Positions 5,292 to 36,770 of a stretch of DNA of 64,000 nucleotides are shown one piece after another. The notes below the pieces were generated by a model, which had not been told where the DNA came from, made no database searches, and was given only the letters and a program-made list of their open reading frames with translations. The translations under genes were made by a program, and so were the position numbers. The stretch is taken from NCBI GenBank assembly GCA_036005065.1, contig DASYQW010000197.1, positions 1-64,000 on the forward strand, written 5' to 3'. This stretch comes from Candidatus Methylomirabilota bacterium. Lineage in GTDB: Bacteria > Methylomirabilota > Methylomirabilia > Rokubacteriales > DASRDR01. Position 1 is the first letter of the stretch. Every line of letters starts with the position of its first letter.

Positions 5292-6437
5292 ATGAAGCTA
5301 GAGCTGACCGAAGAGCAAGAGATGATCCAGACGCTCGCGCGAGACTTCGCCGAGCAAGAGGTGAAGCCTGTCGCCTCCGAGTGCGATCGAGCGGCCCGGT
5401 TTCCCCACGCCACCGTCAAGCGGATGGGCGAGCTCGGCCTCATGGGCATCGCCATTCCCGAATCCCGGGGCGGCAGCGGGGCCGACACGACCTCCTACGT
5501 CCTCGCCCTCGAGGAAGTGGCCGTCGCCTGCGCCTCCCACGCGGTCGTGATGTCGGTCAACAACTCGCTGGTGTGCGACCCGATCCACCGGCACGGCAGT
5601 CCCGAGCAGCACGAGCGCTTCCTGGCCCCGCTCGCCTCCGGCAAGGGCCTGGGCTGCTTCGCCCTGACGGAGCCCCAGGCCGGCTCCGATGCCACCAACC
5701 AGGCCACCCTGGCCCGCCGGGACGGCGACCATTACGTGCTCGGCGGCCGCAAGATCTTCGTCACCAACGGCCGGGAGTCCACCGTGGCTCTCGTGTTCGC
5801 CCAGACCGACCAGGCCAAGGCCCATCACGGCATCTCGGCATTCCTCGTCGAGAAGGGCACACCCGGCTTCCTGGTCCCGAAGGTCGAGGACAAGCTCGGG
5901 TTGCGAGCCTCCGACACCGCCGAGTTCGTCTTCGAGGAGTGCCGGGTCGCGGCCGCCAATCGGCTCGGCGCCGAGGGGGAGGGGTTCCGGATCGCCATGA
6001 AGGCCCTCGACGGCGGTCGGATCGGGATCGCCGCCCAGGCCGTCGGCATCGCTCGGGCCGCGCTCGAAGCCTCGGTGGCCTACGCGAAAGAGCGGAAGTC
6101 GTTCGGGGTGGCGATCGGCCAGCACCAGATGATCCAGTGGATGCTGGCCGACATGGCCACGGCGGTGGACGCCGCGCGGCTCCTGACCTGGCGGGCGGCG
6201 ACGCTCAAGGACCAGGACAAGCCCTTCGGGACCGCTTCGTCGATGGCCAAGCTCTTCGCCTCCGAGATGGCCATGCGGGTGACCACCGACGCCGTGCAGG
6301 TCCACGGCGGCTACGGCTACATCAAGGAGTACCCGGTGGAGCGGTTCTTCCGGGACGCCAAGATCACCCAGATCTACGAAGGCACGTCCCAGATCCAGCG
6401 GCTGGTGATCGCCCGGTCCGTGCTGGGGCCCAAGTGA
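5292..6437 (+). CDS. Acyl-CoA dehydrogenase (short/branched-chain type)
   Basis: This 381-residue flavoenzyme introduces a trans-2,3 double bond into an acyl-CoA and passes electrons to ETF. Seen: [12 protein letters not shown] (FAD/substrate loop), [30 protein letters not shown] and the catalytic glutamate at 363 in [10 protein letters not shown]. The ATG at 5292 is chosen because family homology begins at [13 protein letters not shown]; the frame is open further upstream only because of high GC. It sits directly behind etfA, its likely electron acceptor. Exact chain-length preference cannot be read from sequence. Confidence 0.93.
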
Positions 6438-6445
6438 GGGAACGG

Positions 6446-8119
6446 ATGGAGAACGCCAGCCCACGATCCGGCGACGACAAGGCGCGGTGGGAGCGCGAGA
6501 CGGCGGCGCCCTTCATCGCGAAGGCGCCGGAGCGGAAGCCCGACTTCGAGACCATGGCCGGGCTTCCGGTCGAGCGGCTCTACACGCCGGCCGATCTCGG
6601 CGAGTGGCGGTACGAGGAGCGTCTCGGGTTCCCCGGCGAGTTCCCCTTCACCCGGGGCGTCTACCCGACCATGTACCGCGGGCGGCCCTGGACCATGCGG
6701 ATGTTCGCCGGGTTCGGGCGCCCCGAGGACACGAACCGGCGCTTCAAGTACCTCCTCGAGCAGGGGCAGACGGGCCTCTCGACCGCGTTCGACATGCCGA
6801 GCCTCATGGGATACGACGCCGATCACCCCCGGGCGCGGGGCGAGGTGGGGCGGGAAGGCGTGTCGGTCTCCACGCTGGAGGACATGGAGCGACTCTTCGA
6901 GGGAATCCCGCTGGATCGCGTGACCACCTCGATGACGATCAACTGCACGGCGTCGATCGTGCTCGCCATGTACCTGGCGGTGGCCGAGAAGCAGGGGGTG
7001 CCCTGGACGAAGGTGGACGGCACCATCCAGAACGACATGCTGAAGGAGTTCAGCGCCCAGAAGGAATGGATCTGCCCGCCCGAGCCCGCGGTCCGGATCG
7101 TGGTGGACATGATCGAGTTCTGCATGAACGACGTGCCGAAGTTCCATCCCGTCTCGATCTCCGGCTACCACATCCGGGAGGCGGGGGCCACCGCGGTGCA
7201 GGAGCTGGCCTTCACCCTGGCCGACGGCATCGGCTACGTCGAGGCATGCGTCAAGCGGGGGCTCGACCCGAACCGCTTCGGGCCCCAGCTGTCGTTCTTC
7301 TTCGACATCCACTCGGACTTCTTCGAGGAGATCGCCAAGCTGCGGGCGGCGCGCCGCCTGTGGGCCGCGATCATGAAGGAGCGCTTCGGCGCCACCGACC
7401 CCCGAGCGATGCTCCTGCGCACCCATACCCAGACCGCGGGCGTCTCCCTCACCGCCCAGCAGCCGCTCAACAACATCGCGCGGGTGGCCATCCAGGCCCT
7501 GGCCGCCGTGCTGGGGGGCGCCCAGTCGCTGCACACGAATTCCTACGACGAGACCTGGGCCCTGCCCACCGAGGAAGCGGTCACGGTGGCGCTCCGGACG
7601 CAGCAGATCATCGCCGAGGAGACCGGGGTCACCCACACGGTGGATCCCCTCGGGGGCTCGTACTTCGTGGAGGCCCTCACCGACCGGATGGAGGCCGAGG
7701 CCTGGCGGCTGATCCGGCGGATCGACGAGCTGGGCGGGATGATCCGGGCGCTGGAGGTCGGCTTCCCCCAGCAGGAGATCGCGGACTCGGGCTACCGGAC
7801 CCAGCTCCAGGAGGACGCCGGCCAGCGGGTCGTGGTCGGCGTGAACCGGTACGTCCAGGCCGAGGAGAAGCCGATCCACTACCTCCGCATCGACGAGCAG
7901 CTCGAGCGCGAGCAGATGGAGCGCCTGCGGGCCGTCAGGGCGCGGCGGAACCCGGGCGAGGTCCAGCGGCACCTGCGGCGCCTGGCCGACGCCTGCCGCG
8001 ATCGGACGAACCTCATGCCGGCGCTGGTCGAGGCGGTGAAGGCGTACGTCTCGCTGGGGGAGATCTCGGACGTCTACCGCCAGGCGCTGGGGCGGTACCA
8101 GGAGCCCATCATCTTCTGA
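6446..8119 (+). CDS. B12-dependent acyl-CoA mutase, large (catalytic) subunit
   Basis: This 557-residue protein is the methylmalonyl-CoA mutase-type TIM barrel without the B12 domain, which is encoded separately at 9148. His242 in [11 protein letters not shown] matches the active-site histidine. The residues that define methylmalonyl-CoA mutase specificity are changed: the tyrosine of RQYAGF is Phe87 (RMFAGF), and the carboxylate-binding arginine of EFMVRNTYI is Gln205 (EFSAQKEWI). Phe and Gln at these places are known from isobutyryl-CoA mutase; the 2-hydroxyisobutyryl-CoA mutase aspartate is absent (Ala114). A monocarboxylic acyl-CoA substrate is therefore inferred. The start is the ATG 8 bases after the dehydrogenase stop. 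Confidence 0.88.
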
Positions 8120-8135
8120 GACGGAGGGCGCCGCG

Positions 8136-8720
8136 ATGGAGCGCACACGGGTCGCTGTGATCGGTCTCATGCTGGGGGCGGCGCTGGCCGGGCCGCCGAT
8201 CAGCCACGCCGACGTGATCCACCTCGTGAATGGCAACCGACTCCAGGTGGACGGGTGGAAGGACGCCGGAGACGCCATCGAGTTCCTGAGCGGCGGCGGC
8301 ATCGTCCGCATCGGGAAGCAGGAGATCCAGAAGATCGACGGCAAGGCGATGCGGGGCGACTTCAAGATGTCCTCGGCGCCGCCCGGCGCCAGCGCGGCGC
8401 CGGCCCCGGGTCCCGCGGCGGCCAAGCAGCTCGCGGAGCTGCTCAAGCAGGGCGAAGGCCTCCTGGCCCAGACCGTCCTCTCGCCGGTCGAGAAGGCGGG
8501 AGCGCTCCGGCGGCTCTCCGACAAGTGGCGAGAGGTCGAGGTGCCCGATACGCTGAAGGATGCCCACGCCAAGGGACAGCAGGCCTGGCAGGGCCTGGCC
8601 GAGGCGACCGCCTCGGGCGAGGCCGCCTCGCCCGAGGCCAAGGCGCGGGTCGAGAAGGCGAAGACCGACCTGCAGGCCGTGCAGGACGAGGTCAAGAAGG
8701 CCACCGGCGAGCCGAGCTGA
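8136..8720 (+). CDS. Secreted protein of unknown function
   Basis: This 194-residue protein has a signal peptide (MERTRVAVIGLMLGAALAG, cleavage probably after SHA). A short beta-rich module follows (DVIHLVNGNRLQVDGW, then GGIVRIGKQEIQKIDG), then an Ala/Pro linker at about 78-92 and a helical, Lys/Glu/Ala-rich C-terminal half that may form a coiled coil. I do not recognise a family. It lies inside the mutase operon, 16 bases after the large subunit and 4 bases before the HIT gene, but nothing links it to acyl-CoA chemistry. Confidence 0.8.
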   Translation: MERTRVAVIGLMLGAALAGPPISHADVIHLVNGNRLQVDGWKDAGDAIEFLSGGGIVRIGKQEIQKIDGKAMRGDFKMSSAPPGASAAPAPGPAAAKQLAELLKQGEGLLAQTVLSPVEKAGALRRLSDKWREVEVPDTLKDAHAKGQQAWQGLAEATASGEAASPEAKARVEKAKTDLQAVQDEVKKATGEPS

Positions 8721-8724
8721 GGGG

Positions 8725-9144
8725 ATGAGCAGCGACTGCGTCTTCTGCAAGATTCGGGACGGGCAGATCCCGTCGACCAGGGTCTACGAGGACGAGCGGA
8801 CGCTCGCCTTCATGGACATCAACCCGGTCAACGAGGGGCACTGCCTGGTCGTGACGCGGGCCCACGCCGCGACCCTCTTCGAGGCAGCCGAGGCCGACCT
8901 CCAGGCGGCCATCGCGACGGCCCGGCGCGTCGCCCTGGCGATCCGGCAGGCACTCCACCCGGACGGCCTCAACCTCCTCCAGGCGAACGGCGCCGCCGCC
9001 TTCCAGTCGGTGCCCCACTTCCACCTCCACCTGATCCCGCGCTGGGCGAACGACGGCAAGGGCTTCGACTGGAAGCTCGTCCCCGGCGACCGGGGGCGGA
9101 TCCAGGCGGTCGCGGACAAGATCCGGGGCGCGCTCGGAGCCTGA
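8725..9144 (+). CDS. HIT family protein (histidine triad nucleotide hydrolase)
   Basis: This 139-residue protein starts MSSDCVFCKIRDGQIPS and carries the histidine triad HFHLHLIP (His98, His100, His102). HIT proteins hydrolyse adenosine phosphoramidates, dinucleotides or acyl-adenylates. The start is the ATG just 4 bases past the previous stop, where family homology begins. It separates the two mutase subunit genes, and the spacing (3 bases to the small subunit) shows one transcript. Confidence 0.92.
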   Translation: MSSDCVFCKIRDGQIPSTRVYEDERTLAFMDINPVNEGHCLVVTRAHAATLFEAAEADLQAAIATARRVALAIRQALHPDGLNLLQANGAAAFQSVPHFHLHLIPRWANDGKGFDWKLVPGDRGRIQAVADKIRGALGA

Positions 9145-9147
9145 CCG

Positions 9148-9564
9148 ATGGCGGGGCCGGCCGAGCGGAAGATTCGCGTGCTGGTCGGCAAGCCGGGCCT
9201 CGACGGGCACGACCGCGGCGCCAAGATCGTGGCCCGGGCCCTCCGCGACGCCGGCATGGAGGTGATCTACACGGGGCTTCACCAGACCCCGGAGCAGATC
9301 GTGGCGACGGCGATCCAGGAAGACGTCGACGCGATCGGGCTCTCGGTGCTGTCGGGCGCCCACAACTACCTCTTCGGGCGGGTCGTGGAGCTGTTGCGGG
9401 ACAAGGGCGTGGACGACGTGGTGATCTTCGGCGGGGGGATCATCCCGCCGGAGGACATCGAGCGCCTGAAAGCGATGGGGGTCAAGGAGCTCTTCACGCC
9501 CGGCACCTCGACCCAGGACATCGTCAAGTTCGTCCGCGAAACGGTCCGCCCGGTCCGGGCCTGA
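9148..9564 (+). CDS. B12-binding small subunit of the acyl-CoA mutase
   Basis: This 138-residue stand-alone cobalamin domain has the DxHxxG motif ([13 protein letters not shown]), where the histidine is the lower cobalt ligand. [12 protein letters not shown] and [14 protein letters not shown] belong to the same Rossmann-like fold, and [11 protein letters not shown] is the end of the domain. It pairs with the large subunit at 6446. Split subunits are known for isobutyryl-CoA and 2-hydroxyisobutyryl-CoA mutases and for archaeal methylmalonyl-CoA mutases. No MeaB-type GTPase chaperone is in this window. Confidence 0.93.
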
Positions 9565-9820: not shown

Positions 9821-9860
9821 CCAGCGCAGCCCGTGGTCCTCGGTCGTCAGTGAGGGCAGG

Positions 9861-11006
9861 GTGGACTTCGAGCTGACCGAGGAGCAGACGCTGGTCCGCC
9901 GGACCGCGCGGGAGTTCGCGGAGGGCGAGGTCGCGCCCGTCATCGCGCGCTTCGACGAGGCGGAGGAGTTCCCGGCCGAGCTCATCCGGAAGCTCGGCGA
10001 GCTCGGGTTCCTGGGCGCCCTGGTCCCCGCCGAGTACGGCGGCGCCGGTCTCGACTACGTCTCCTACGCGGTGGTGGTCGAGGAGCTCTCCCGCATCGAC
10101 GGCTCGATCGGCATCACCATGTGGGCGCACAACTCGCTCTGCACGAACCACATCCACATGTTCGGGACCGAGGCCCAGCGGCAGAAGTACCTCCCGTCCC
10201 TCTGCCGGGGCGAGACGCTGGGCGCCTGGGGGCTCACCGAGCCGGGCTCCGGCTCCGACGCGGCCGGCATGAAGACGGTCGCCGTCGAGGACGCGGACGC
10301 CTATGTCCTCACCGGCTCCAAGGCGTTCATCACCAACGGCAGCGTGGGGGCGACCGCGGTCGTCATGGCCCGGACCGATCCGGCCGCCGGAGCCCGGGGG
10401 GTCTCGGCCTTCATCCTCGAGCGAGGCATGCCGGGGTTCCGCGCGGGCCAGCGGTACAGGAAGCTCGGGCTCCACGCCTCCGACACGGCCGAGCTGATCC
10501 TGGAGGGCGTGCGGGTGCCCCGGGGGAACCTGCTCGGGACGAAGAACGGCGGCTTCGCCGAGGTGAAGCGCGTCCTGGAGGGCGGGCGGATCGCCATGGC
10601 CGCCATGGCCGTCGGACTCGCCCAGGGGGCCCTGGATCAGGCCGTGAAGTATGCCAGCGAGCGTCAGGCTTTCGGCCGGCCCATCGCCGAATTCCAGGGG
10701 ATCCAGGCCATGCTGGCCGACCTCGCCACCGAGGTGGAGGCGGCGCGCCTCCTCACGCTGCGCGCGGCCTACGGGAAGGACCGCGGCCGTCCCGTCATGA
10801 AGGAGGCGTCGATGGCCAAGGTCTTCGCCTCCGAGGTCGGGATGAAGTGCGCCACCAAGGCTGTGCAGATCCACGGCGGCTACGGGTACATCCGGGAGTT
10901 CCCCATCGAGCGCTTCTTCCGCGACGTGAAGCTCTGCGAGATCGGCGAGGGAACCTCCGAGGTGCAGCGGATGGTGATCGCTCGCCACCTCCTGGAGTCG
11001 CGGTAG
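9861..11006 (+). CDS. Acyl-CoA dehydrogenase (second copy)
   Basis: This 381-residue dehydrogenase is related to the one at 5292 and the same length. Motifs are WGLTEPGSGSDAAGM, TGSKAFITNGS, IHGGYGYIREFPIERFFRD and catalytic Glu363 in GEGTSEVQRMVIAR. The start is GTG at 9861, beginning at MDFELTEEQTLVRR. Two dehydrogenases, ETF and a B12 mutase together suggest oxidation of branched or short acyl-CoAs. Its TAG stop is the start of repeat copy B. Confidence 0.92.
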   Translation: MDFELTEEQTLVRRTAREFAEGEVAPVIARFDEAEEFPAELIRKLGELGFLGALVPAEYGGAGLDYVSYAVVVEELSRIDGSIGITMWAHNSLCTNHIHMFGTEAQRQKYLPSLCRGETLGAWGLTEPGSGSDAAGMKTVAVEDADAYVLTGSKAFITNGSVGATAVVMARTDPAAGARGVSAFILERGMPGFRAGQRYRKLGLHASDTAELILEGVRVPRGNLLGTKNGGFAEVKRVLEGGRIAMAAMAVGLAQGALDQAVKYASERQAFGRPIAEFQGIQAMLADLATEVEAARLLTLRAAYGKDRGRPVMKEASMAKVFASEVGMKCATKAVQIHGGYGYIREFPIERFFRDVKLCEIGEGTSEVQRMVIARHLLESR

Positions 11007-11145
11007 GGCATTTCGGGGGGGTCTCGGAAGACCCCCCCGATACCCCCCCGTCGTGGCGGCGGCGAAGCCGCCGCTCGGAGCACTCCTCGATGCACCACGC
11101 GCTCGCTGGTCGGCGCCGGGTCGGATCACTCCGACATACGGCTAG
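11004..11145 (+). repeat. Family 1 repeat copy B
   Basis: The copy begins with the stop codon TAG of the dehydrogenase and ends at CTAG (11142-11145). It has three parts: the G-run/C-run hairpin (11015-11040), the hairpin GGCGGCGGCGAAGCCGCCGC (from 11054), and a tail with TCGATGCACCACGCG and CTCCGACATACGG. A family 2 copy follows directly. Confidence 0.85.
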
Positions 11146-15677: not shown

Positions 15678-15812
15678 GTGTGGGCCCGAGTAACCCGGCG
15701 CCGCCCACCGAGCGTGTGGTGCATCGAGGAGTGCTCCCAGCGGCGGCTTCGCCGCCGCCCACGACGGGGGAGCATCGGGGAGGTCTTCCGAGACCCCCCC
15801 GAAGTGGGCTAG
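15674..15812 (-). repeat. Family 1 repeat copy C, complete and CTAG-bounded
   Basis: CTAG at 15674-15677 includes the moxR stop, and CTAG at 15809-15812 closes the copy. The orientation is opposite to copy B: the tail (CCGAGTAACCCGGCGCC) comes first, then CGGCGGCTTCGCCGCCG, then the hairpin AGGTCTTCCGAGACCCCCCC. Because it lies between two plus-strand genes, the hairpin cannot be explained only as a terminator placed behind a gene. Confidence 0.85.
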
Positions 15813-29893: not shown

Positions 29894-29907
29894 ACGGAGG
29901 AACATCC

Positions 29908-30933
29908 ATGGGACGGGACATCGTCGAGCTGAAGCGCCGGGACTTCCTACGCACGGCGGGCGTGGCTGCCTCGGCCCTGGCCGCCGGAAGCCCGTGGCCG
30001 AGGCGGGCCAGCGCCCAGGGCGCGAAGGGGAAGGTCCGCTTCGCCTACCTCCAGCTCGGCTGGGCGGCGTGCGAGATCGTCCACAAGGAGGACCTTCTCG
30101 GCAAGCGCGGCTGGCAGGCCGAGTACAACGTCGTGCCCGGCTCCCCGGCCGGCCTGGTCAACACCTTCGCCGCCGGCAACGTGGACGCCATCGACATGTC
30201 TTTCGCGCTCACGGCGAAGATGTTCGAGGACAAGGTGCCGCTCAAGGTCACGGGGGTGGCCACCGCGGTGCTGGGGGCGGTGGTGGCGCGAAAGGATTCG
30301 GGAATCACGAGGGTGGAGGACCTCCGCGGCCGGAAGATCGCGGCCGTGGTAGGCACCTCGACCTTCTTCGACATCCGAACGCTCACCCTCAAGGGCTACG
30401 GGTTCGACCTCCAGAAGGACGCCCAGATCGTCACCGCCCAGGCGCCGCCCGACATGGCGACGCTGATGGCCAAGAAGGAAGTCGACGCCATCGTCGCCTG
30501 GCAGCCGATCTCCGATCAGGTGGTGTTCCGCGGCGACGGCGTGTACCTGGCCAAGCAGATCGACCTCTGGCGGAAGGCCACCGGGCGCCAGGCCGGGTAC
30601 CCGGTGCACGTCTGCTACGTCGTGAACCCGACCTTCATCGAGAAGAGCCCCGCCTTTGCCAGGGACCTGAACGACGCCCAGAAGGAAGCCGTCGACATCT
30701 GGTATGGAAAGAAGGGTCGCGCCATCGAGATCGTGACCGAGGTCACCAAGATTCCGCGCGACGTGGTGGAGTACGCCTACGGGCAGACGGTCCAGATGCT
30801 CCACGGCCTGTCCGACGAGCAGATCGACACGCTCACCCTGCAGCTCCAGCTCACCAGGGAGTCGGGCTTCCTGAAGTCCGACATCTGGGACAGCCCGGAG
30901 CGGCTCCGGAAGGAGTTCTTCTGGCGCGGCTAG
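29908..30933 (+). CDS. ABC transporter substrate-binding protein (NitT/TauT/SsuA type)
   Basis: This 341-residue periplasmic binding protein has a Tat-like signal (KRRDFLRTAGVAASALAAG, cleavage after ASA near residue 37). The family core includes NTFAAGNVDAIDMSFALTAKM and DLRGRKIAAVVGTSTFFDI, then KKEVDAIVAWQPISDQVV. The ATG at 29908 has GGAGGAA 7 bases upstream. It begins a binding protein-permease-ATPase set (permease 31149, ATPase 32631). Ligands in this class include sulfonates, taurine, nitrate and aromatic acids. Its stop lies in repeat copy E. Confidence 0.92.
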   Translation: MGRDIVELKRRDFLRTAGVAASALAAGSPWPRRASAQGAKGKVRFAYLQLGWAACEIVHKEDLLGKRGWQAEYNVVPGSPAGLVNTFAAGNVDAIDMSFALTAKMFEDKVPLKVTGVATAVLGAVVARKDSGITRVEDLRGRKIAAVVGTSTFFDIRTLTLKGYGFDLQKDAQIVTAQAPPDMATLMAKKEVDAIVAWQPISDQVVFRGDGVYLAKQIDLWRKATGRQAGYPVHVCYVVNPTFIEKSPAFARDLNDAQKEAVDIWYGKKGRAIEIVTEVTKIPRDVVEYAYGQTVQMLHGLSDEQIDTLTLQLQLTRESGFLKSDIWDSPERLRKEFFWRG

Positions 30934-31128
30934 GTCATTTCGGGGGGGTCTCGGAAGACTCCCCCGATGCCCCCCTAACGGCGCGCCGCAAGACGTCGCG
31001 GGGCTGGGGCCCCGCCGTCCGAGGCGCGCGAACCCAAAGTGGCGGCGGCGAAGCCGCCGCTCGGAGCACTCCTCGATGCACCACCGGCTCGGTGGTCGGC
31101 GCCGGGTTACTCGGACACACCCCTGCGT
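30930..31128 (+). repeat. Family 1 repeat copy E, with an internal insertion
   Basis: CTAG at 30930-30933 carries the stop of the binding-protein gene. The G-run hairpin follows, then about 60 extra bases (about 30977-31037) that contain their own hairpin GCGGGG-CTGGGG-CCCCGC, then GGCGGCGGCGAAGCCGCCGC and the tail TCGATGCACCACCGGCTCGG...TTACTCGGACACACC. No CTAG is found at the right end. Confidence 0.8.
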
Positions 31129-31148: not shown

Positions 31149-31919
31149 GTGGCTGAATCGAGAGGCTCGGGGAAGTGGAGTCGACGGCTCCGGCTCCCCA
31201 CCCTGGTCGTCCTCGCGGCGGTCCTGGTCGTCTGGGAGCTGGTCTCCCGGCGCTACGGCGCCTACGTGCTCCCGTCGCCCGGCTCGGTGCTCCGCGGGCT
31301 CGGCGCCATCATCCAGTCCGGTGAGCTGTGGACGCACACCTCGGCCTCGCTCTACCGCATCGTCGTCGGCTTTGGTGGCGCGCTCGGGCTGGCCATCCTG
31401 ATGGGACTCTGCTCCTTTCTCTGGCCGCCCGCCCGGATCGTGGTCCGCGACGTGGTGACGGTCCTCAACTCGACGTCCGTCTTCGTCTGGATCGTCGTCT
31501 CGCTGATCTGGTTCGGTCTCACCGACCTGGCCCCGATCTTCACGACCTTCATGATCACGCTCCCCGTGGTCGGCGCCAACGTGATGGAGGGGGTAGAGAG
31601 CGTCGATCGGCGGCTGCTGGAGATGGGCCAGATCTACCGGCTGTCCGGCTGGCAGAAGTTCCGCTCGATCGTGATCCCCTCGACGGTCCCGTACCTGGTG
31701 GCCGGCATGAAGGTCGGCTTCGGGCTCGCCCTGAAAGTCTCGGTGGTCGCCGAGATCTTCGGGGTCACCAGCGGGATCGGCTACATCATGAATTACAGCC
31801 GCGAGATCCTGGCCACCCAGATGGTCTTCGTGTGGGCCCTCGTCATGATCGGCATCATGCTGGTCACCGACAAGCTCTTGTTCGAGTCGCTGACGCGGCG
31901 CCTCGAGCGGTGGCGGTAG
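31149..31919 (+). CDS. ABC transporter permease (SsuC/TauC type)
   Basis: This 256-residue permease has about six membrane helices. It has VWELVSRRYGAYVLPSPGSV at the N-terminus, the FVWIVVSLIWFGLTDLAPIF stretch and the coupling loop MGQIYRLSGWQKFRSIVIPS. The GTG at 31149 is the start. It belongs with the binding protein upstream (separated by repeat copy E) and the ATPase at 32631 (separated by the toxin-antitoxin pair). Confidence 0.9.
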   Translation: MAESRGSGKWSRRLRLPTLVVLAAVLVVWELVSRRYGAYVLPSPGSVLRGLGAIIQSGELWTHTSASLYRIVVGFGGALGLAILMGLCSFLWPPARIVVRDVVTVLNSTSVFVWIVVSLIWFGLTDLAPIFTTFMITLPVVGANVMEGVESVDRRLLEMGQIYRLSGWQKFRSIVIPSTVPYLVAGMKVGFGLALKVSVVAEIFGVTSGIGYIMNYSREILATQMVFVWALVMIGIMLVTDKLLFESLTRRLERWR

Positions 31920-31980: not shown

Positions 31981-32202
31981 ATGCGGAAGACAACCGTGTA
32001 CCTCCCCGAGGACCTCAAGCGCGCGCTCGAGCAGACCGCGAGGAGCCGGGGCGAAAGCGTCGCCGAGCTGATCCGGGAAGCCCTCCGGGCCCTGGTGGCG
32101 AACGCGACCCCGCCACGGCCGCGGGTCCCGCTGTTTCGGAGCGAGGATCCCACACTGGCCGAGCGCGTCGACGACGCTCTCGCGGGCTTCGGTGAGCGGT
32201 GA
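31981..32202 (+). CDS. Ribbon-helix-helix antitoxin (VapB-like/CopG family)
   Basis: This 73-residue protein starts MRKTTVYLPEDLKRALEQTA, a classical ribbon-helix-helix DNA-binding module (strand 3-8, helices about 10-22 and 27-42). The C-terminal part (FRSEDPTLAERVDDAL) would bind the toxin. An upstream ATG at 31972 is possible. The toxin gene overlaps its stop by 4 bases, the usual antitoxin-toxin arrangement. Confidence 0.88.
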   Translation: MRKTTVYLPEDLKRALEQTARSRGESVAELIREALRALVANATPPRPRVPLFRSEDPTLAERVDDALAGFGER

Positions 32203-32618
32203 TCCTCCTCGACACCAGTGGGCTCCTGTCGGCCATCGACGAGCGCCAGCGACATCACACCGCCTGTGCGGCGGCCGTGAGCCGGTCGCGCGGCCCCCTG
32301 CTTCTGTCTCCGTTCGTCCTCGCCGAGCTGGACTACCTCCTGGCGACGCGAGTCAGCGCTCAGGCGCAGATGGCCTTGCTCGACGAGGTCGCCCGGGGAG
32401 CGTACCGGCTCGAGCCCTTCTCGGGCGCCGACGTGGCGGCGGCGCGGGATGTCATGACGCGTCACCTGGAGCTCCACCTCGGTCTCGCCGACGCCTCCAT
32501 CGTCGTGCTGGCTGCCCGCCACGGGACCCGGGACGTACTCACTCTCGACGAACGCCACTTCCGGGCCGTCCCCGCCCCCGATCGCCGGCGATTCCGTCTG
32601 CTGCCCACCGATGCGTGA
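32199..32618 (+). CDS. PIN-domain toxin (VapC-like ribonuclease)
   Basis: This 139-residue PIN nuclease begins MILLDTSGLLSAID. The acidic metal-binding residues are visible: Asp5, Glu43 (LAELDYLLAT), Asp98 (GLADASIVVLA) and Asp117 (LTLDERHF). Such toxins cleave tRNA or rRNA when the antitoxin is lost. GTG start overlapping the antitoxin stop. Intact and probably functional. The pair sits between the permease and ATPase genes of one ABC transporter. Confidence 0.9.
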   Translation: MILLDTSGLLSAIDERQRHHTACAAAVSRSRGPLLLSPFVLAELDYLLATRVSAQAQMALLDEVARGAYRLEPFSGADVAAARDVMTRHLELHLGLADASIVVLAARHGTRDVLTLDERHFRAVPAPDRRRFRLLPTDA

Positions 32619-32630
32619 AGGGGCGGGTAG

Positions 32631-33383
32631 TTGAAGCTCGAGGTCAGCGGCGTCTCCAAAGCCTACGCGATCCCGGTCCTCGACCGCGTGACGTTCGAGG
32701 TCGCCGAGGGCGAGTTCGTCTGCCTCCTCGGACCGAACGGCTGCGGCAAGACGACCCTCCTGCGGATCATCGGAGGGCTGGAGCCGGCCACCGCCGGCGA
32801 AGTGCGGCTCGATGGGCGGCCGGTGCCCTGCGGCGGCGATGCCGACTTCCACGTGGGCGTCGTCTTCCAGGAAGATCGTCTGCTCCCGTGGATGACCCTC
32901 GAGGACAACGTCGCGCTGGTGCTCCGGCCGCTCGGGCGGGACGCCCGGGCCCGGACCGAGATGGCCCGGCGCTACCTTCACTTCGTCGGCCTCCAGGGCT
33001 TCGAAGGCTACTACCCGAACCGCGTCTCGGGCGGGATGCGGCAGCGGGCGGCGATCGCCCGGGCCCTGGCCATCGAGCCGAACCTCCTGCTGATGGACGA
33101 GCCGTTCGGGGCCCTCGACGCCCAGAACCGACGGATCATGCAGGCCGAGGTCAAGCGCATCTGGGCCGAGACCGGGAAGACGATCGTCTTCGTGACCCAC
33201 TCGATCGAGGAGGCGGTGGCGATCGGCACCACGCTGATCATGATGTCGGCGCGGCCGGCGCAGGTGCGCGAGCTGATCCGGAATGACGGCATCCGCGACC
33301 CCCACGCCCTCGTCGACCACCTGAACCAGGTCATCATGGAAGAGGTCATGCGCCAGCAGGGTCCCGTGCCGGGCGTCGAATAG
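32631..33383 (+). CDS. ABC transporter ATP-binding protein (SsuB/TauB type)
   Basis: This 250-residue ATPase has Walker A GPNGCGKTT, Q-loop VVFQEDRLLPWMTLEDNVAL, signature VSGGMRQRAAIARAL, Walker B LLMDEPFGALD and H-loop VFVTHSIEEA. It appears to start with TTG (32631), preceded by AAGGGGCGG. It powers the transporter whose permease is at 31149; the toxin-antitoxin pair intervenes, 12 bases away, so this gene may be read from the same transcript. Confidence 0.92.
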   Translation: MKLEVSGVSKAYAIPVLDRVTFEVAEGEFVCLLGPNGCGKTTLLRIIGGLEPATAGEVRLDGRPVPCGGDADFHVGVVFQEDRLLPWMTLEDNVALVLRPLGRDARARTEMARRYLHFVGLQGFEGYYPNRVSGGMRQRAAIARALAIEPNLLLMDEPFGALDAQNRRIMQAEVKRIWAETGKTIVFVTHSIEEAVAIGTTLIMMSARPAQVRELIRNDGIRDPHALVDHLNQVIMEEVMRQQGPVPGVE

Positions 33384-33538: not shown

Positions 33539-34636
33539 ATGAAGGGTCACGTCGCGGTCTTCACCGGGGCGGGGAAGCCGATGGAGATCCGGGAGTATGC
33601 CGTCCCGGATCCCGGCCCCGAGGACCTCGTCGTCCGCGTCCGGCGGGCCAACATCTGCGGCTCGGACCTCCACATCTGGCGCGGCCATGGCCCTCCGTTT
33701 CCCCGAAACCTGGCCGTCGTCTCGGGCCACGAGATGGTCGGAGAGGTGTTCAGGCTCGGCCGGGACGTGAAGCACGATTGTCAGGGAGAGCCGCTCCGCG
33801 AGGGCGACCGGATCGCGTATGCCTACTTCCTTCCTTGCGGTGCGTGCGGGGCCTGTCTCGACGGCTCGCCGGCTTGCCCGAACCGCTACCGGCACTGGCT
33901 GGGCGCCGGCGCCGAGACGCCGCCCCACTTCCGCGGCGCCTACGGCGAGTTCTACTATCTGCGCAGGGGCCAGACCGTGTGCCGGGTGCCCGAAGGGCTG
34001 GCCGACGACATCGTCTCCCCGGTGAACTGCGCCCTCGCCGAGGCCCTCTACGGCCTCGACCGCGTCGGCCTGCGGCTCGGGGACACGGTGGTCATCCAGG
34101 GAGCGGGCGGGCTGGGCCTCTACGCGACGGCGCTCGCCAAGGACATGGGCGCCGGGCAGGTCATCGTGTTCGACCGGCTCGGGACGCGGCTCGAGCTGGC
34201 GCGCGCCTTCGGCGCGGACCTGACCGTCAATGTCGACGAGTGCTCCGAGGCCGAGCGCCGGGGGCTCGTGCGCGAGCGGACTCGCGGGCAGGGAGCCGAC
34301 ATCGTCGCCGAGTTCGTCGGCGCGCCCCATGCCGTGGAGGAAGGCGTGAAGCTTCTGCGGCCCGGCGGGCGCTATTTCTGGGTCGGCAACATCACGCCCG
34401 ACCTGCCATCGGCGCTCGATCCCGGGACCGTCGTCCGCGGAGGCCAGACGATCCGCGGCGTGATCGTCTACGAGCCGTGGGCCCTGCCCCGGGCGCTCGA
34501 CTTCCTGCGCCGGCGAGCCGGCGTGTACCCCTTCGAGCGGATCGTGTCGCACACGTATCCGTTCGCGCGCATCAACGACGCCTTCGGGTTCGCCGGCGAG
34601 GGCCGGGCCATCCGGGTCTCCCTCACAATGGAGTGA
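33539..34636 (+). CDS. Zinc-dependent alcohol dehydrogenase (MDR superfamily)
   Basis: This 365-residue medium-chain dehydrogenase has catalytic zinc ligands in NICGSDLH and SGHEMVGE. The structural zinc lobe is CGACGACLDGSPAC, and the NAD(P)-binding motif is QGAGGLGLYATALAKDMGA. ATG at 33539. No ribosome binding site is visible because a repeat ends right before the ATG, so the start region may be translated inefficiently or the mRNA may begin nearby. Substrate unknown. Confidence 0.9.
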   Translation: MKGHVAVFTGAGKPMEIREYAVPDPGPEDLVVRVRRANICGSDLHIWRGHGPPFPRNLAVVSGHEMVGEVFRLGRDVKHDCQGEPLREGDRIAYAYFLPCGACGACLDGSPACPNRYRHWLGAGAETPPHFRGAYGEFYYLRRGQTVCRVPEGLADDIVSPVNCALAEALYGLDRVGLRLGDTVVIQGAGGLGLYATALAKDMGAGQVIVFDRLGTRLELARAFGADLTVNVDECSEAERRGLVRERTRGQGADIVAEFVGAPHAVEEGVKLLRPGGRYFWVGNITPDLPSALDPGTVVRGGQTIRGVIVYEPWALPRALDFLRRRAGVYPFERIVSHTYPFARINDAFGFAGEGRAIRVSLTME

Positions 34637-34642
34637 AGAGCC

Positions 34643-34792
34643 ATGATCAAGAAGACGGCCAAAGGCTACGTGCTCTACTCGAAGGACGGCTCGAAGAAGC
34701 TGGGCGGGCCGTACAAGACGCGGGACGCGGCGCTCAAGCGCGAGCGTCAGGTCCAGTTCTTCAAGCACGCGAAGGGAAGGCGCGCGGGGTAG
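34643..34792 (+). CDS. Small basic protein, unknown
   Basis: This 49-residue protein begins MIKKTAKGYVLYSKDGSKKL and continues GGPYKTRDAALKRERQVQFF. It begins 6 bases after the dehydrogenase stop, with GAAGAG upstream. The pattern (a short beta-hairpin with 'KKLGGPYKTRDAALKRERQV') resembles small single-domain proteins seen in phage and bacterial genomes, but no function is known to me. Its TAG stop is at the boundary of repeat fragment G. Confidence 0.7.
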   Translation: MIKKTAKGYVLYSKDGSKKLGGPYKTRDAALKRERQVQFFKHAKGRRAG

Positions 34793-34848
34793 GCGTGGGT
34801 CCGAGTAACCCCGCGCCGACCACCGAGCGCGTGGTACATCGAGGAGAA
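34789..34848 (-). repeat. Family 1 repeat fragment G (tail part only)
   Basis: GTAG with the upstream stop codon, then CGTGGGTCCGAGTAACCCC, GCGCCGACCACCGAGCGCGT and CATCGAGGAG. Both hairpins are missing and the sequence runs into the ribosome binding site of the next gene. Confidence 0.65.
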
Positions 34849-34886: not shown

Positions 34887-35954
34887 ATGATCAAGCCGTA
34901 CATGGCCGTGGGGCTGGTCCCCACAGTCCGGGGGATCCGGAAGCGGAGCGACATCAAGATCAACCTCGAGCACCTCACCCACCTCGTGAAGGCCGCGGCC
35001 TGGCTGTCGAGCCTCTCCATTCCGGTCCGGCTGATCGCCTTCCCCGAAGGCGCCCTGCAGGCCTTCAACGACGAGGTCCTCGACCTGGACCACGCGAAGT
35101 TCGCCCGCGAGTGCGCGATCGACATCCCCGGCGAGGAGACCGAGGCGCTGGGCAAGATCGCCCGCGAGTACAACGTCTTCGTCATGGCCCAGGCCAAGGC
35201 CCGGCACCCCGACCTCAAGGACCGCTTCTTCAACGTGGGCTTCATCCTCAACCCGCGTGGCAAGGTGATCCTCCGGCACTACAAGGTGTCGCCGCTGTTC
35301 CCGGTCGAGCACTCGGTGTGCCCGCACGACGTCTACGACTGGTGGATCGAGAAGTACGGCCGGAACCTGGACGCCTTCTGGCCGGTCGCCGACACCGAGA
35401 TCGGGCGGCTCGGCATCATGATGGCCAACGAGGGGTCCTATCCGGAGAACGCCCGGGCCCTGGCGCTGAACGGAGCCGAGGTCGTCTACCGGGCCTCCTA
35501 CCCGCATCCGGCCACCGGCAACGAGTACTTCGAGATCCAGAGCCGGGCGCGCGCGCTCGACAACAACATGTACATCATCGCCCCCAACATGGGGACCTAC
35601 TACCTCTTCCCGGAGGAGAGCACGCCCATCGACACCTTCGGCGGGCGCTCGTACGTCATCGACTACAGGGGCCGGATCGTGGGCCGGCAGGACTATGGGG
35701 CCGGCTCGACCTACGTGGCGGGGCCGGTCGACATCGAAGCCCTCCGGCACCACCGGGCCTCCGCCCAGTGGGACAACTGGCTGAAGGACGTCCGGACCGA
35801 GCTCTACCAGCTCCTGTACGAGAAGCCGATCTACCCGAAGAACCTCTATCTCAAGCGCGAGCCGATGAAGCACGCCGAGTACCGCCAGAAGGTCATCCGG
35901 CGGCAGATCAGGCTGATGCACGACCGCGGGACGTGGAAAAAGCCGAGCGGCTGA
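34887..35954 (+). CDS. Nitrilase-superfamily protein lacking the catalytic cysteine
   Basis: This 355-residue carbon-nitrogen hydrolase fold keeps the glutamate of the triad (Glu54, FPEG) and the lysine (Lys133, RHYK). Where the nucleophile should be (ICYDGNFPE in typical members) it reads IMMANEGSYPE, with Ala180 (codon GCC, 35424-35426) at the cysteine position. The rest of the fold, including RASYPHP and the aromatic C-terminal extension, is intact. It is either a non-catalytic member or one with a different chemistry. GGGGAGG lies just before the ATG at 34887. Confidence 0.85.
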   Translation: MIKPYMAVGLVPTVRGIRKRSDIKINLEHLTHLVKAAAWLSSLSIPVRLIAFPEGALQAFNDEVLDLDHAKFARECAIDIPGEETEALGKIAREYNVFVMAQAKARHPDLKDRFFNVGFILNPRGKVILRHYKVSPLFPVEHSVCPHDVYDWWIEKYGRNLDAFWPVADTEIGRLGIMMANEGSYPENARALALNGAEVVYRASYPHPATGNEYFEIQSRARALDNNMYIIAPNMGTYYLFPEESTPIDTFGGRSYVIDYRGRIVGRQDYGAGSTYVAGPVDIEALRHHRASAQWDNWLKDVRTELYQLLYEKPIYPKNLYLKREPMKHAEYRQKVIRRQIRLMHDRGTWKKPSG

Positions 35955-36490: not shown

Positions 36491-36649
36491 GTGGCGATCA
36501 CACCGAGCGCCTCCTACATCATTCCGAGCGTCTTCAACAAGAAGGTCGCGCCGGCCGTCGCCCGTGAAGTCGTCCAGGCGGCCCAGCGGGCCGGCGTGGC
36601 GCGCCGAAGCGGCGGTCCGGCCCGCCGTCCCGGGGGTGTGTCTGAGTGA
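36491..36649 (+). pseudogene. 3' remnant of a malic enzyme gene
   Basis: The 52-residue reading frame contains ITPSASYIIPSVFNKKVAPA followed by VAREVVQAAQRAGVARR, which is the C-terminal end of NAD(P)-dependent malic enzymes. The other roughly 400-700 residues are missing; upstream lies the intact lipoprotein gene. The last residues and the TGA stop come from repeat copy H. It looks like a deletion scar, not a working gene. Confidence 0.7.
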
Positions 36650-36770
36650 GCGGGCGCCTACCACCGACCGCGTCGTGCATCGAGGAGCCTTTCGAGCGGC
36701 GGCTTCGCCGCCGCCACCCTCCCGGGGGAGGTTTGGGAGGGGGCCGTCGAGGCCCCCTCCCATGATCTAA
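36630..36770 (-). repeat. Family 1 repeat copy H (subtype with double hairpin)
   Basis: Tail GGTGTGTCTGAGTGAGCGGG, then TCGTGCATCGAGGAG, the GCGGCGGCTTCGCCGCCGC hairpin, and a variant end with CTCCCGGGGGAGG followed by GGGAGGGGGCC and GGCCCCCTCCC. It ends CTAA (36767-36770) instead of CTAG. Copy J is the same subtype. Confidence 0.8.

Follow-up and report, generated by a model that had tools for sequence, protein, structure and literature searches.

A widespread clade of nitrilase-fold proteins with alanine in place of the catalytic cysteine, and its association with TrpB2

Introduction

The Glu-Lys-Cys triad is treated as a hallmark of the nitrilase superfamily, and the nitrilases and amidases of this fold act through a thioester formed on the cysteine. 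The locus described here, found in a 64,000-nucleotide stretch of DNA (the window) from a soil bacterium of the Rokubacteria type, encodes a nitrilase-fold protein with alanine at the nucleophile position. Without a Cys nucleophile there is no thioester intermediate, and the normal nitrilase or amidase reaction is therefore impossible, which raises the question of what such a protein does. Our literature search returned no relevant paper on a Cys-less nitrilase family or on nitrilase pseudoenzymes, and plasmid annotations call its relatives merely 'nitrilase-related carbon-nitrogen hydrolase'.

Results

Gene, protein, and fold

The open reading frame begins with the ATG at position 34887, preceded by a GGGAG ribosome-binding-like site, and its stop codon ends at 35954 (Table 1). 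Profile search finds a single domain in the 355-residue product, PF00795 (CN_hydrolase; 2.3e-28, 99.7 bits against a cut-off of 23.2). The structure prediction proposed in the sequence-only reading was run, and the AF2 model (built from 47 sequences; pLDDT 79.5, pTM 0.80) shows the nitrilase fold, with residue 180 in a strand-turn-helix of the shape expected for the nucleophile elbow. Confidence is low in the loop 138–143, which includes E141, and the geometry of the pocket is accordingly only tentative. The best solved structures in Foldseek are formamidases (AmiF), with E of 3e-22 and a TM of ~0.63 by query, followed by aliphatic amidases and carbamoylases; the top 50 are all nitrilase-fold enzymes. 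By profile, fold, and catalytic Glu and Lys the protein belongs to the nitrilase superfamily, from whose defining features only the Cys nucleophile is missing.

None of the NCBIfam models of named superfamily enzymes that the protein matched reached its cut-off; the formamidase AmiF model NF009803 gave 59.7 bits (curated cut-off 406) and the aliphatic amidase model NF009802 gave 51.3 bits (curated cut-off 427). Among the PADLOC anti-phage defence models, 0 families were matched. A defence role like that of the RT-nitrilase DRT1 was rejected on this ground and because the DRT1 domain retains its catalytic Cys.

Table 1. Features of the nitrilase-fold gene and its surroundings in the window.
Feature	Position	Strand	Basis
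SsuA/taurine-like ABC substrate-binding protein, co-linear with the gene in Rokubacteria	29902..30933	+	
SsuC-like ABC permease	31149..31919	+	
PIN-domain ORF, an insertion between the genes for the ABC permease and the ATPase	32199-32618	+	
ABC ATPase	32631..33383	+	
Zn alcohol dehydrogenase family protein, directly upstream of the nitrilase-fold gene	33539..34636	+	
Nitrilase-fold protein, Cys-less, 355 aa	34887..35954	+	ORF translation, PF00795, AF2, Foldseek
Glu54 codon GAA, catalytic Glu position, invariant	35046..35048	+	AmiF alignment
Lys133 codon, catalytic Lys position, invariant	35283..35285	+	AmiF alignment
Glu141 codon, formamidase/amidase tetrad position of the second Glu, invariant across the Ala clade	35307..35309	+	AmiF alignment
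Cys145 codon, Cys nearest the catalytic loop; Ser/Thr/Val in other members	35319..35321	+	homologue alignment
Ala180 codon GCC, nucleophile-Cys position; M179 is a clade signature	35424..35426	+	AmiF alignment

Catalytic positions

The catalytic residues were mapped by phmmer against the PDB formamidases (H. pylori AmiF; the mutant entry 2e2k carries Ser for Cys). As read from the sequence before, Glu54 and Lys133 align with the catalytic Glu and Lys of AmiF, and Ala180, in the motif IMMANEGSYPE, aligns with its nucleophile Cys. To these we add the second catalytic Glu, which is also retained (E141). The closest known proteins by sequence and structure, the formamidases of H. pylori (2dyu/2e2k) and B. 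cereus (5g3o) and the aliphatic amidase AmiE, share the fold and have their catalytic Glu, Lys, and second Glu aligned with E54, K133, and E141; the identity to AmiF is 21–24% (Foldseek alignments), and the nucleophile differs, being Cys there and Ala here.

The reading would fail if another Cys had taken over the active site, and this was not seen. No Cys is invariant among the 100 Ala-clade sequences, and no substitute is conserved; C145 was rejected as a replacement nucleophile, as it is not kept in other members (Table 1).

Distribution of the Ala clade

The protein is not an isolated mutant of a Cys enzyme either, since all of the close homologues collected carry Ala. In 100 of 100 near-full-length clade members, with identity down to 39%, position 180 is Ala, far more often than chance would give; a sequencing or assembly error or a lone mutation was rejected, because the same residue is found in all of them, isolates and plasmids included. 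The hosts are Rokubacteria, Chloroflexota, Acidobacteriota, Actinomycetota, and Pseudomonadota, together with haloarchaeal and Flammeovirga plasmids. Some of the host names were assigned from metagenome bins and could be in error, but the set also includes isolate genomes or complete plasmids (Ktedonosporobacter, Rhodoplanes, Tsukamurella, Haladaptatus, Flammeovirga).

Scanning genome contigs yielded 80 loci (66–90% identity), which belong to Rokubacteria, Acidobacteria, Chloroflexi, Alpha-, Gamma-, and 'Delta'-proteobacteria, and Acidimicrobiales. All of them have Ala, the sole exception in the scan being a second copy in Acidipila (L052:377-1507, 51% identical), which has Cys. In tblastn searches of plasmids, Ala members were found in Tsukamurella (63%), Haladaptatus (55–56%), Halorientalis (52%), and Flammeovirga (39%). 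The same searches gave Cys members, at 37–47%, in Paracoccus aminophilus (pAMI1), Tsukamurella, Streptomyces, Sinorhizobium NGR234, and Arthrobacter. By whole-genome search the gene is present in 43 of 95 genomes of the Rokubacteria phylum, and a match, nearly always of the Ala type, in 17 of 251 Chloroflexota genomes; further members come from Actinomycetota and Acidobacteriota. Both types occur together at two loci, in Acidipila (L052, Cys copy at 377-1507 and Ala copy at 6001-7068) and in a Chloroflexota genome (L213, G1082:C241, Cys copy at 7822-9195 and Ala copy at 9859-10992).

The Cys-bearing sisters (for example P. aminophilus pAMI1, Streptomyces, and the Acidipila copy) are 44–51% identical over the full length and have the same Glu, Lys, and Glu. 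They differ in having Cys at position 180 and, on two plasmids, in their M20 peptidase and amidohydrolase neighbours. TrpB2, the usual partner of the Ala gene (see below), is absent from the eight Cys-bearing sister loci that have 5 kb or more of flanking sequence.

Evolution and selection

Among 61 representatives placed in a tree, the 25 Ala members surrounding the window make up a single clade (bootstrap 100, SH-aLRT 98) that nests within Cys-bearing branches. The nesting places a single loss of Cys, by change to Ala, at the base of this main clade. A control tree, with columns 174–190 and four long rows left out (the distant L199 being among the omitted items), preserves this result. It calls for at least two origins of Ala, one for the main clade and one for L176, whose genome came from the Acidobacteriota search, and it rejects a common origin of the two.

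More Cys-to-Ala cases are seen among distant nitrilase-fold relatives: L176 (G508:C176), L177 (G585:C104), and L199 (G1022:C50). Motifs of these cases are LLAFDGKFPE and IAHDRNYPE, the latter with Cys for the catalytic Glu; L199 has Ala at the nucleophile position and Cys replacing the catalytic Glu. Another branch (L158, L161, L166, L151) has Ser at the nucleophile position, Arg for the Lys, and no E141. It is apparently a second, more decayed Cys-less lineage of the fold, and its substitutions have the look of loosened constraint, in contrast to the main Ala clade.

Within that clade, 56 columns are invariant across the 100 sequences, and E54, K133, and E141 are all among them (chance 0.004). 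The median dN/dS of ~0.1 over 837 close pairs (a simple NG86 estimate, biased by the high GC but clear in sign) indicates strong purifying selection, which bears out the earlier view that the protein is under selection. An enzyme homologue devoid of an essential catalytic residue, with Ala180 fixed and the rest so conserved, can be described as a putative pseudoenzyme. Near the lost Cys the clade has signatures of its own, namely M179 for Ile/Cys, A203 for Pro, and P139-V140 beside E141, which suggest that the pocket was rebuilt, not simply lost. Judged from these alignments and trees, the Ala branch is an old, well-kept, monophyletic, and widely transferred part of the superfamily.

Association with TrpB2

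The steadiest genomic partner of the gene is the stand-alone, indole-using PLP enzyme TrpB2 (NF009057/TIGR01415), the role of which is unclear in most bacteria; TrpB2 of Rhodoplanes reaches 740 bits, where the cut-off is 366. In the Rokubacteria phylum it is present in 41 of the 43 genomes with the gene vs 9 of the 52 without it (Fisher 2e-15), and within the order in 40/42 vs 4/18 (p 2e-8), both p-values being inflated by kinship. In the genera g24 and g13, some genomes hold both genes and some neither. The two lie at most 10 kb apart in 28 of the 41 Rokubacteria-phylum genomes having both.

At the linked loci the two genes are on the same strand in 33 of 33 cases (a few of these are the same locus fetched twice), and their order varies between lineages. 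The distance is 27–230 bp in Xanthobacteraceae, Rhodoplanes, marine Alphaproteobacteria (TMED109), and the Acidobacteria locus L047; in L050 the genes adjoin, and in Porticoccaceae and relatives one aldehyde dehydrogenase gene lies between them. In Rokubacteria, TrpB2 is located 0.7–5.5 kb upstream, often with the SsuABC-like transporter in between. The identity matrices of the two proteins are moderately correlated (Mantel 0.41, 2/2000 permutations), and in most partner pairs outside Rokubacteria the nitrilase-like protein is more conserved (66–87%) than TrpB2 (59–72%).

Outside Rokubacteria, TrpB2 was found in 20 of the 26 carriers tested and is missing in 6. Most of the Acidobacteria carriers without it have a styrene/indole-monooxygenase-like flavin gene nearby instead. 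In the source genome TrpB2 is not beside the gene, being located on another contig (C42); a second, partial TrpB2-like open frame of 231 aa is also present (G000:C131:11990-12586).

Genomic neighbourhood

The window keeps the transporter trio (Table 1), with CoA-ligase and MmgE/PrpD genes upstream. The neighbours in other lineages include TrpB2, aldehyde dehydrogenase, flavin monooxygenase, cyclase family, and CoA ligases; in Tsukamurella they comprise indolepyruvate-oxidoreductase-like genes, a cyclase-family gene, and salicylyl-CoA hydroxylase genes. A relation to the indole oxidation genes iif/ipo/dho was considered and rejected, because the published enzymes there (flavin oxygenases, a short-chain dehydrogenase, and a two-domain SnoaL-type cofactor-independent oxygenase) include no nitrilase-fold protein.

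A dispersed repeat of ~85 bp has five copies in the window, at 11083-11116 (-), 15698-15731 (+), 31039-31123 (-), 34791-34846 (+), and 36633-36717 (+), with at most 3 mismatches in a 34-base core; none are expected by chance. One copy is placed just upstream of the nitrilase-fold gene. Genome-wide, there are 379 candidate places, of which the 40 scored show 82–89% identity, and the copies between 29500 and 38000 matched no Rfam family.

Discussion

Since the same Ala is fixed across the clade, the working mechanism must differ from that of every characterised nitrilase. The invariance of E54, K133, and E141 and the purifying selection indicate a pocket still in use, and argue that it still works, unlike that of the Ser branch. 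We infer from the sequences that the Glu-Lys-Glu acid-base network, retained after the loss of the nucleophile at the base of the branch, would form an intact pocket for a small ligand with an amide, amine, or carboxylate group, bound with no hydrolysis. The protein would then be a partner, sensor, or carrier for a metabolic module of which TrpB2 is the most constant member, and it may be in contact with TrpB2 itself. The module probably salvages or otherwise handles indole or some related aromatic, a field of action proposed on account of the TrpB2 link and of a report that indole salvage is a task of TrpB2 (Hiyama et al. 2014, cited through PMC11085991). We favour this non-hydrolytic, ligand-binding reading tentatively, with a probability of slightly under one half (about 0.48).

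Two known systems help to judge it. N-carbamoyl-D-amino acid amidohydrolase C171A/V236A (1uf4, 1uf7) has the same fold and a laboratory Cys-to-Ala change, and the 1uf7 structure holds substrate, that is, binding without turnover (PMC10741476). For this reason a natural Cys-less protein could be a sensor, carrier, or partner, but the carbamoylase is engineered and from another subfamily, whereas Ala180 is natural. In the TSB-like pseudoenzyme of eudicots, a protein connected with indole/tryptophan synthase metabolism, catalytic residues have likewise been lost in nature (PMC12727527); it differs in its fold and in that its partner TSA has been shown, while here there is gene association alone.

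What speaks against a purely binding role is the strict retention of Glu, Lys, and Glu, which exceeds the need of a binding protein. Other points that weigh against the favoured reading are the separate contig of TrpB2 in the source genome, the six carriers that lack it, the low model confidence at residues 138–143, and the kinship that confounds the co-occurrence tests. The same three catalytic residues, unvarying in 100 sequences while the Ser branch has lost the Lys and the second Glu, are an argument for the main rival, namely an active Cys-independent enzyme. Glu54, Lys133, and Glu141 would serve acid-base chemistry in a lyase, hydratase, tautomerase, or decarboxylase, or would activate water directly, and the enzyme would possibly make or consume the substrate of TrpB2. 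The clade signatures suggest repacking for a new job, and the neighbouring genes are metabolic. Nevertheless, no invariant residue specific to the Ala clade stands out as an obvious new catalyst, and we know of no characterised nitrilase-fold protein with Cys-free chemistry of the lyase or hydratase type; we regard such an enzyme as possible but rather unlikely. Less likely again is the specific form of a new enzyme class on this fold, in which the Glu-Lys-Glu residues would carry out a non-hydrolytic acid-base step feeding TrpB2, for example by releasing or transferring indole or some related nucleophile.

The possibility that the protein serves a Cys-bearing paralogue as a regulatory or structural subunit, in mixed oligomers, would account for the two loci with both copies. 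It is improbable, as a close Cys paralogue is lacking from the source genome, which gave just two matches at ~30% identity, and in 42 of the 43 Rokubacteria-phylum carriers no further distinct member of the family turns up at E 1e-40 (a second row of G063 at this threshold is a piece of the same split gene). Slightly more doubtful still is an ordinary amidase using another nucleophile in the same pocket. Ser143, two residues past E141, and Thr170 are invariant in the Ala clade, but both are also common in Cys-bearing relatives and are therefore not replacements, and the variability of C145 discourages the nearest Cys. A decaying gene or a database artefact, as the lost catalytic residue and the many carriers that are metagenome-assembled genomes might suggest, is refuted by the low dN/dS, the same Ala in isolates and complete plasmids, and the 56 invariant columns.

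Because the branch is wide, old, well kept, and devoid of the Cys, the automatic label 'carbon-nitrogen hydrolase' is probably wrong for all members of the Ala clade. The nitrilase fold would here have been adapted either to ligand binding or to a different kind of catalysis, and the tie to TrpB2 would offer this Cys-less family a concrete partner and a substrate class.
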